A DNA stretch of 64,000 nucleotides from positions 1 through 64,000 of the forward strand of contig JAHDOI010000006.1 of NCBI GenBank assembly GCA_018434945.1, in the 5' to 3' direction. This stretch comes from Selenomonadales bacterium. Its GTDB lineage: Bacteria > Bacillota > Negativicutes > Sporomusales > UBA7701. Below are positions 3,046-22,083 of this stretch, one piece after another. The notes beneath the pieces are model-generated. The model was not told the origin of the DNA. It searched no databases and saw only the letters and a program-made list of their open reading frames with translations. Each line of letters opens with the position of its first letter. The first letter of the stretch is position 1. Position numbers and translations under genes: made by a program.

Positions 3046-4494
3046 TTACAGGCTGTCGCCGAAGTCTTTCCTGAATTTGGCGGCCAGGTCGGCCTGCCAG
3101 CCGGAGACGGGGGCGAGTTTGCCGAAGAAGAAGCGCAGGAGTTTGGGCTCTTCGGTGAAGGTGAGGCCGCCGACGAGGGCGCGGTTGTCGTACAGCCAGG
3201 TGATGCGATCGACGGCGTACGCGACCTGGGAGAGGGTGAAGACGCGGCGCGGCACGGCGAGGCGGACGAGTTCCATTTTGGCGAAGGTTTCGTTGCCCTG
3301 TTCGTCGCGGGCTTCGGACATTGTGCCGCGTTCCATGCCGCGGATGCCGCCGGCGATGTAGACGGCGGCCGCGAGGGCGGCGGCGGGGTATTGCTGCTGG
3401 GGGAGGTGGGCGAGGAACTGGCGGGCGTCGATGTGGCAGCCGAGGCCGCCGGGGGGCGTGATGACGGGGACGCCGCGCTTGCTTAGTTCTTCGACCATAT
3501 AGGCGATGAACAGCGGCCCTTGGCTGATCATGTCTTCGTCCATGGTTTCCTCGAGGCCGACGGCGATGGCCTCGATTTCGCGGACCGACATGCCGCCGTA
3601 GGTGAGGAAGCCTTCGTAGAGGGTGACGAGTTCGCGCATCTTGAGGTAGGCTTGCTCGCTGTTGGTGCAGATGACGCCGCCGCGGGCGCAGCCGAGCTTG
3701 CGGGCGGAGAAGTACATGATGTCGACGAGGTCGGCGATGGCGCGGCTGATTTCGCGGATGGACATGGCTTTGCATTCTTGTTCGCGGGTTTTGATGAAGT
3801 GGAGGTTGTCGGCGAGGAGGCTGGCGTCGAAGACGATGATGATGCCGTGTTTATCGCAGACGCGGCGGATTTCGCGCAGGTTGGCGAGCGAGTGGGGCTG
3901 GCCGCCGATGAGGTTTGTGCCTGTCTCGATGCGGACGAAGGCGATTTTGTCGGCGCCGTGCTGTTCGACGACGGCGGCGAGCTTGCCGGGGTCCATGTTG
4001 CCTTTGAAGGGGTGGTCGCTGGTGACTTCGGTGCCTTCGTCGATGATGAGTTCTTCGACGCTGCCGCCGTTGAGTACCACGTGGGCCTTGCTGGTGGTGA
4101 AGTGGTAGTTCATGGGGACGATGGTGCCGGGCCTGACGAACGCCTGGGAGATGATGTTTTCGCACGCGCGGCCCTGGTGGGCGGGCAGGACGTATTTCAT
4201 GCCGAAGATGTCGTTGATTTTGGTTTCCAGCTTGGTGAAGGTGGCCGAGCCGGCGTAGCTGTCGTCGGCCTCCATCATGGCGGCGAGCTGCCTGTCGCTC
4301 ATGGCGTTGACGCCGCTGTCGGTGAGCATGTCGAGGAAGACGTCGTGGTTTTTGAGGAGGAATGTGTTGTTGCCGGCTTCGGCGATGGCCGCCAGGCGGC
4401 GTTCGACGGGGACGAGGGAGAGTTTCTGGACGATGCGGACTTTGTGGAGCTCGAGGGGCACGGTTTGGCCACGGTAGAATTTGACCACAGACAT
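3046..4494 (-). CDS. tyrosine phenol-lyase / tryptophanase-like beta-eliminating lyase
   Basis: PLP enzyme of the beta-eliminating lyase family (TPL/TnaA: Tyr to phenol, or Trp to indole, plus pyruvate and ammonia), 482 aa. Visible: HQGRACE (106-112, PLP phosphate loop), D223 (pyridine N), SARKLG at 263-268 with K266 in the Schiff-base position, and VRLAVPRRVFT near the C-terminus as in TPL. Oddities: the Arg after the aspartate that contacts the PLP 3'-oxygen in TPL/TnaA (D-x-x-R) is Leu226, and the first lysine of the usual KK pair is R265. It is therefore a divergent subgroup and its substrate is uncertain. A T-box with a UAC specifier in its leader ties it to tyrosine. ATG 4494 follows AAAAGGAGTG. 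Confidence 0.8.
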   Translation of the reverse strand: MSVVKFYRGQTVPLELHKVRIVQKLSLVPVERRLAAIAEAGNNTFLLKNHDVFLDMLTDSGVNAMSDRQLAAMMEADDSYAGSATFTKLETKINDIFGMKYVLPAHQGRACENIISQAFVRPGTIVPMNYHFTTSKAHVVLNGGSVEELIIDEGTEVTSDHPFKGNMDPGKLAAVVEQHGADKIAFVRIETGTNLIGGQPHSLANLREIRRVCDKHGIIIVFDASLLADNLHFIKTREQECKAMSIREISRAIADLVDIMYFSARKLGCARGGVICTNSEQAYLKMRELVTLYEGFLTYGGMSVREIEAIAVGLEETMDEDMISQGPLFIAYMVEELSKRGVPVITPPGGLGCHIDARQFLAHLPQQQYPAAALAAAVYIAGGIRGMERGTMSEARDEQGNETFAKMELVRLAVPRRVFTLSQVAYAVDRITWLYDNRALVGGLTFTEEPKLLRFFFGKLAPVSGWQADLAAKFRKDFGDSL

Positions 4495-4524
4495 CGGTAA
4501 TCACTCCTTTTATGTTTTGGAAAA

Positions 4525-4803
4525 TAAAAAATCCCGTCGCTGTATTTCTACAGGGACGGGATGTGAAGCCGTGGTACCACCCTGCTTGCTTGTGGCAAGC
4601 CGCTCGTTTCGGGTGCGGGAACACAGGGGTTCCGATACCCTAGCCCGGTAACGGGGGCGCTCCGGCGCGGTCTACTGAATGTTCGACCTGCTGCTCACGG
4701 GTGTATTTCAGTCAGTGTGCCTACCGGTTCGCACCAGCCACCGGCTCTCTGCAAGGCCCGAAAAACTTACTTCTCCCGCTCATGGCATTTTTGGTATGTA
4801 TTT
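4525..4803 (-). ncRNA. T-box leader, tyrosine-specific (UAC specifier)
   Basis: tRNA-sensing leader on the minus strand upstream of the lyase gene. The conserved T-box sequence reads GCAGGGTGGTACCACGGC (4585-4568). A terminator stem follows at 4561-4532 with a run of T at 4531-4525. In the upstream Stem I the segment TGAAATACACC places UAC (4705-4703) in the specifier position, one base after GAA, exactly as AUC sits in the ileS T-box of this window. Uncharged tRNA-Tyr should favour antitermination, so the lyase would be expressed on tyrosine shortage. Confidence 0.9.
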
Positions 4804-4809
4804 ACAGCC

Positions 4810-4838
4810 ATTATATAGCAGGGGATGACAGGTGTCAA
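4810..4838 (-). promoter_or_regulatory. promoter of the T-box/lyase transcript
   Basis: On the minus strand TTGACA (4838-4833), a 17-bp spacer and TATAAT (4815-4810): a consensus housekeeping promoter placing the RNA start near 4803, just ahead of the T-box. Confidence 0.85.
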
Positions 4839-21821: not shown

Positions 21822-22083
21822 CATACAGTATTTTCAGGATAACTGCGGCAACAGCCGAATACAACAATAGCGATGACGGAGAGAGTAGCCTGTCTATGTC
21901 TTTGCAGCGAGCCGGGGGCGGTGGAAGCCCGGCAGGACGGATGCGGCGAAGATCCCTCCCGAGCTGCGGACCGAAGGCAGTAGGCTCCGCCGCGTGACGG
22001 GCGTTAGACGTTTTGAGTGGCGTGAGCAAGTAGGGTGGTACCGCGGGTGAAACCTCGTCCCTTTCGGACTGGGTTTCTTTTAT
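21822..22083 (+). ncRNA. T-box leader, isoleucine-specific (AUC specifier)
   Basis: Leader of ileS. GGCGAAGATCCC places AUC (21952-21954) in the specifier loop. The T-box sequence TAGGGTGGTACCGCGGGT is at 22031-22048, followed by a terminator stem and T-rich tail at about 22050-22083. Uncharged tRNA-Ile should promote read-through. A copy of the dispersed palindromic repeat lies between this terminator and the gene, so it is part of the read-through mRNA. Confidence 0.93.

Follow-up and report, generated by a model that had tools for sequence, protein, structure and literature searches.

The stretch of DNA analyzed here (64,000 nucleotides, positions 1 to 64,000 of contig JAHDOI010000006.1 from the Selenomonadales bacterium assembly GCA_018434945.1; the window below) contains on its minus strand a gene related to those of tyrosine phenol-lyases (TPL), which is preceded by a T-box leader with a tyrosine specifier codon. 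Binding of tRNA is known for all T-boxes, and these riboswitches turn genes on when the cognate amino acid is scarce. TPL, on the other hand, is known as a degradative enzyme, while its synthetic direction is known mainly through industrial use. Hence, the locus raises the question of what an enzyme of this family contributes to the cell when tyrosine is in short supply.

To describe the regulatory region, the features between the promoter and the start codon were located on the minus strand of the window. The sigma-A type promoter TTGACA-N17-TATAAT (4810..4838, minus) matches the consensus at 12 of 12 positions, while 0.2 such matches were expected from shuffled sequences. The T-box leader RF00230 (4549..4792, minus) was recovered at full length by cmscan with 116.1 bits against the gathering threshold of 93 (E 5.2e-25), which bears out an earlier note on this DNA, where a full T-box with a consensus promoter was proposed to precede the lyase gene. 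In the register of the Rfam alignment the specifier codon UAC (Tyr) is located in the Stem I specifier loop (4703..4705, minus). The T-box sequence AGGGUGGUACCACG (4570..4583, minus), assigned from the Rfam alignment and by reading the sequence, contains a UGGU bulge, which fits a tRNA with discriminator A. The intrinsic terminator hairpin with its U tract (4525..4562, minus) has a predicted RNAfold energy of -20 kcal/mol (z -6.5), which was equaled by none of the shuffles, and the hairpin itself spans approximately 4562-4531 and is followed by UUUUUU; this terminator was not picked up by a consensus scanner. Its 5′ half, CCCGUCCCU, is also part of the T-box antiterminator, and the two structures are mutually exclusive. 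The Shine-Dalgarno sequence AGGAG (4504..4508, minus), identified by reading the sequence, is placed 9 nt 5′ of the start codon of a gene encoding a 482-aa pyridoxal phosphate (PLP) enzyme of the TPL/tryptophanase family (3046..4494, minus; ATG at 4494, end at 3046). This gene faces a gene ending at 2981, so the T-box unit is monocistronic in the window. The adjoining region (96-2981, plus) is a cysteate utilization cluster in the order dicarboxylate/amino-acid symporter, CuyA and CuyB, where CuyA (D-cysteate sulfo-lyase) scored 543 bits against a cut-off of 450, and CuyB (cysteate racemase) 242 against 190.

The reading of the specifier codon was calibrated on the other T-boxes of the same genome. 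The specifier loop of the window leader aligns to the Rfam model as GAA-A-UAC-A-CCC, and the loop of the ileS T-box (21864-22065) as GAA-G-AUC-C, which is the same register. In this register the T-boxes of pheA and pheS show UUC, those of leuA and leuS CUC, and those of valS, cysE, glyQ and serA show GUC, UGC, GGC and UCC, respectively, each being the expected codon. Together with the TBDB rule, according to which the specifier consists of bases 2-4 counted from the end of the bulge (PMC7778990), these data support the UAC register. The alternative specifiers AUA, ACA and AAU were excluded by this calibration, and only UAC is common to the L047 and L005 leaders. The earlier note had also read the codon as UAC in the register of AUC in ileS; the covariance model places no other codon there, and 32 of 33 homologous leaders have UAC as well. 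A pattern search for a tRNA-Tyr gene gave no match.

Two further UAC T-boxes in this genome indicate the kind of regulon to which the leader belongs. One of them precedes the aroF-tyrA operon (L001), and its leader is 80% identical to that of the window; the shared codon and this identity make a duplication within the tyrosine regulon likely. The other (L005; G000:C44:4128-4380, minus, also L104:3897-4100, minus) is a complete T-box of the UAC type that has both promoter and terminator and precedes a 67-aa remnant of shikimate kinase. The 67-aa reading frame fuses the N- and C-terminal ends of shikimate kinase, and the locus apparently suffered an internal aroK deletion, which left the riboswitch intact. 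Because the other UAC T-boxes of the genome are placed on aroF-tyrA and on the shikimate kinase remnant, the regulon is regarded as biosynthetic. T-boxes of other aromatic amino acids in the genome are found elsewhere: a UUC T-box (L013; G000:C77:2327-2605, minus) precedes a sodium:solute symporter gene, and two UGG T-boxes (L009 and L014; G000:C37) precede genes of an ECF-type ATPase and a membrane component, which suggests that their targets are Phe and Trp uptake systems, respectively.

The product of the gene belongs to the Beta_elim_lyase family (PF01212; Pfam 176.4 bits against a gathering threshold of 27), while its scores are below the equivalog cut-offs of TPL (TIGR02618; 457.2 bits against 720.7) and of tryptophanase (TIGR02617, 339 bits against 825.8; NF053783, 394 bits against 750). 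The nearest solved structures are TPLs, with 39-40% identity, and the clade to which the protein belongs has no solved structure of its own. A homolog in the isolate Pseudobacteroides cellulosolvens is 75% identical to the window protein. The AlphaFold prediction (pLDDT 92) is closest to the TPL fold with a TM score of 0.90; the contribution of this model is confirmation of the fold. In the phylogenetic tree 45 clade members came out together with 100% support; their stem measures 1.15 changes per column, and the group is sister to the TPLs and outside the group of proven TPLs, while the tryptophanases, used as the outgroup, also formed a supported group. The proven TPLs have Arg at the position where the clade has Leu (discussed below), so the protein does not group with proven TPLs sharing this Leu, a grouping that the earlier note had named as speaking against its interpretation. 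Members of the clade were found in Bacillota, Bacteroidota, Spirochaetota, Pseudomonadota, Armatimonadota, Acidobacteriota, Zixibacteria and Mycoplasmatota; some of the proteobacterial members from metagenome-assembled genomes may be misbinned contigs, while the member on the Rhodobacter sp. CZR27 plasmid (NZ_CP023549.1, 232892-234337; L105) is from a complete genome. The broad NCBIfam subfamily NF009709 gives the window protein the name tryptophanase, and public annotation does the same for clade members such as that of the Rhodobacter plasmid, despite the missing indole-site residues. A full-length tryptophanase-like gene, 34.5% identical to the query, is also present in the records of Campylobacter phages A11a and A18a (MG065691.1 and MG065686.1; H22 and H23), where it is possibly a host contamination.

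To compare the active sites, the residues of the clade were aligned with those of TPL, whose numbering is used unless the window is indicated. In TPL the substrate hydroxyl is hydrogen-bonded to Arg381 and Thr124, and proton transfer takes place from Tyr71 (PMC9262865). The phenol site Thr124, Met379, Arg381 and Phe448 (Thr133, Met387, Arg389 and Phe455 in the window protein) was kept in all clade members examined, as were Tyr71, Phe123, Asn185, Asp214, Arg404 and Phe448/449, and none of the members had lost the PLP lysine Lys257 (window Lys266). At positions 124, 381 and 448, where the clade has Thr, Arg and Phe, the aligned tryptophanases carry Asp, Ile and His; the identification as tryptophanase was ruled out by these pocket residues. 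The differences from TPL are concentrated elsewhere. Window Arg265-Lys266 align with Lys256-Lys257 and Leu226 with Arg217, and all 45 members have Leu for Arg217 and Arg for Lys256, in agreement with the earlier note, which had described the loss of the PLP-contacting Arg and of the first lysine of the KK pair. The same 45 members have Arg for Asn262 (window Arg271), with a one-residue deletion, Leu for His343 (Leu351 in the window numbering) and His for Phe346, while Glu69 is replaced by Asp in 43 of 45. Positions 52, 69 and 262 make up the monovalent-cation site of TPL, with Lys256 involved in cation activation, and it may be hypothesized that the clade replaced the cation by arginine side chains. 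The aromatic specificity of the clade thus looks unchanged, while the cofactor environment looks rebuilt. By two tested defining features, the equivalog score and the clade, and by several residues, the protein is not a TPL, while there is support for a phenol binding like that of TPL. The suggestion in the earlier note that the enzyme makes something other than tyrosine is weakened by the conserved phenol pocket, which bears on the aromatic half of the substrate only.

The association between the T-box and the clade gene was then compared across a genome collection containing 80 homologous loci and a phylum sample of 398 genomes, where 48 genomes had a match at the threshold used, a few of these being partial or only about 45% identical. 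The data showed that 33 distinct genomes, including those of Halanaerobiales, Tissierella, Peptococcaceae, Natronincola and Acholeplasmataceae, have a T-box immediately 5′ of the clade gene. The single leader without UAC (L178; G246:C4, minus; T-box at L178:322-102) has the specifier UGC (Cys) and keeps the UGGU bulge. In the window's genome the bulge of the cysE T-box is UGGA instead, so the L178 leader still looks suited to a tRNA with discriminator A, and its UGC codon can be read as a mutation, an assembly error or an altered specificity. In the phylum sample 41 clade genes, with the window's gene excluded, had usable upstream sequence, and the T-box was present on 23 of them, while about 45% of the clade genes in the phylum are without it; among the clade genes checked outside Bacillota and Mycoplasmatota none had a T-box. 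The controls, from the same sample, were 20 genes scoring above the equivalog cut-off of TPL and a second set of 20 TPL/TnaA-family genes scoring below it, and a T-box was found on 0 of 20 in either set. The Fisher test comparing the clade with the controls gave p of about 4e-9, a value computed with 23/42 and on species that are not independent. The absence of T-boxes from all 40 controls indicates that the switch is specific to the clade. In three genomes (L119, L131 and L144) cobalamin riboswitches were seen close to genes of the clade or of the TPL type. The literature search found no report of a TPL-family gene as a T-box target, with older T-box surveys being beyond that search. We consider the regulation of the clade gene by a tyrosine T-box to be close to certain.

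The genomic context was also searched for links to aromatic amino acid synthesis. In an uncultured Bacillota genome (L025) a Tyr T-box and the clade gene are followed after 60 nt, on the same strand, by aroF (DAHP synthase), with which the clade gene forms an apparent operon; the contig ends inside aroF. Another contig of this genome starts within tyrA, followed by aroA-aroC-aroB-aroE-aroK; while the adjacency to aroF is observed directly, the joining of the two contigs is a guess. The clustering of reading frames from 50 loci gave no recurrent partner gene, and tblastn searches with AroF, TyrA, PheA and AroD of the window's genome found the aroF neighbor alone, in a single genome (L025/L109). 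The claim of the earlier note that the T-box implies a role in tyrosine supply gained from this apparent operon, as well as from the conserved UAC codon and the controls without T-boxes. Six carriers of the clade gene (G109, G135, G185, G233, G423 and G439) also have a true TPL above the cut-off, so in these genomes the clade gene is not simply the catabolic TPL, and the roles of the two are separate there. In the window's own genome, where a second copy of the lyase-like gene was not found, tyrA, pheA and aroC are kept, hence tyrosine synthesis there does not depend on the clade enzyme alone. In the phylum sample a prephenate dehydrogenase above the cut-off was missing in 19 of 45 carriers versus 8 of 35 non-carriers (p = 0.10). 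Replacement of tyrA was rejected as a general explanation, because its loss is only weakly enriched in carriers and the window's genome has tyrA. On the other hand, Halanaerobiales Soudan_29, Peptococcaceae 1109 and Tissierella P1 have the Tyr T-box with the clade gene and chorismate synthase, while they are without tyrA or pheA.

The activation of a UAC T-box at tyrosine scarcity, together with a complete phenol/tyrosine pocket, is best explained by an enzyme that forms tyrosine. We consider it probable, though well short of assured, that the clade enzyme salvages phenol for this purpose and is switched on by uncharged tRNA-Tyr. When tyrosine is short, uncharged tRNA-Tyr would pair with the UAC specifier and the UGGU bulge, which would stabilize the antiterminator and let transcription enter the single lyase-like gene. 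The enzyme would then convert phenol, pyruvate and ammonia to L-tyrosine, which is the TPL reaction reversed, or alternatively it could use phenol and the aminoacrylate derived from a beta-substituted amino acid such as serine, and it would supplement the shikimate/prephenate pathway or serve for salvage alongside it. In vitro, TPL chemistry does run in the synthetic direction, which is exploited in the industrial production of L-DOPA and tyrosine (PMC7508748). The clade genes without a T-box and the UGC specifier of one leader are counterpoints to the tyrosine-forming role, as are the altered PLP-contacting residues, which could reflect a different reaction. A more specific and quite tentative proposal is that the clade is a dedicated tyrosine synthase, which joins phenol to aminoacrylate from serine (or O-phosphoserine or cysteine) in the manner of tryptophan synthase; its pyruvate-releasing branch would be suppressed and its cation site replaced by arginines, and it could provide a prephenate-independent route on which some tyrA-less anaerobes depend.

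In the main rival explanation, tyrosine is supplied by the clade enzyme through a different PLP reaction. The most plausible candidate is that of an aromatic aminotransferase, by which 4-hydroxyphenylpyruvate becomes tyrosine and the standard pathway is completed. The ring hydroxyl of this substrate would be held by Thr124 and Arg381, and the changed residues at PLP-contacting positions would mark a shift from elimination to transamination. The biosynthetic regulation and the aroF adjacency also fit an aminotransferase, tyrA in the window's genome makes the keto acid, and no phenol source was identified. However, a transaminase would need neither Tyr71, which in TPL is the general acid protonating the leaving ring carbon (PMC9262865), nor Phe448/449, and both are retained in all members; moreover, in the 19 of 45 carriers without tyrA the usual way of making the keto acid would be missing. 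We regard the aminotransferase as an unlikely reading.

Somewhat less likely still is a role of the clade on another small molecule, where the link to tyrosine would be indirect; the enzyme could, for example, be a beta-lyase that cleaves C-S or C-O bonds of a tyrosine-related compound. Many beta-substituted amino acids are known to be substrates of TPL and TnaA in vitro, and the replacement of all three of Arg217, Lys256 and His343 also speaks for this reading. Against it stand the phenol-contacting residues, every one of which is invariant across many phyla, and a T-box that is purely of the Tyr type. In the weakest explanation the protein is a normal degradative TPL, which splits tyrosine into phenol, pyruvate and ammonia, and the T-box either got there by evolutionary accident or works in an unusual sense. 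This explanation draws on the identity to proven TPLs and on the shared fold and phenol pocket, but it is very improbable given that a switch turned on at scarcity has the wrong sense for degradation, that the association recurs in 33 genomes while 20 of 20 true TPL genes of the phylum are without it, and that the score of 457 is far from the TPL cut-off.

If the tyrosine-forming role is true, a widespread sister clade would represent a natural biosynthetic use of TPL chemistry, and a second tyrosine route would exist, which presumably recycles phenol released by other anaerobes. A large set of database entries named tryptophanase would be corrected, the predictions of tyrosine auxotrophy in anaerobic and gut bacteria would be altered, and the defined active-site changes could be used for studying what sets the direction of PLP lyases.

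Among known systems, the clade is most similar to TPL (EC 4.1.99.2; Citrobacter freundii and Erwinia/Pantoea; TIGR02618), with which it shares the fold, the PLP lysine, the four-residue pocket, the catalytic Tyr71, and Arg404, Asn185 and Asp214. It is different from TPL in its separate clade, in the Tyr T-box control, in its score below the equivalog cut-off, and in the substitutions Arg217Leu, Lys256Arg, Asn262Arg with the one-residue deletion, His343Leu, Phe346His and, in 43 of 45 members, Glu69Asp. With tryptophanase, or tryptophan indole-lyase (TIGR02617, NF053783), it has in common the fold family and the overall length, while the indole-site Asp, Ile and His are missing, with Thr, Arg and Phe in their place, and the scores are below the TnaA equivalog cut-offs. 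The Tyr T-box leaders of aromatic biosynthesis genes, such as that of aroF-tyrA, have the same UAC specifier, whereas the target here is a gene of the TPL family. If the proposed role is right, the closest functional parallel would be the beta subunit of tryptophan synthase, which also joins a free aromatic ring to aminoacrylate to form an aromatic amino acid under starvation control; this likeness is in the way of working only, as tryptophan synthase beta belongs to the fold type II PLP enzymes and is no homolog in the sense that matters here, and its indole is made internally.
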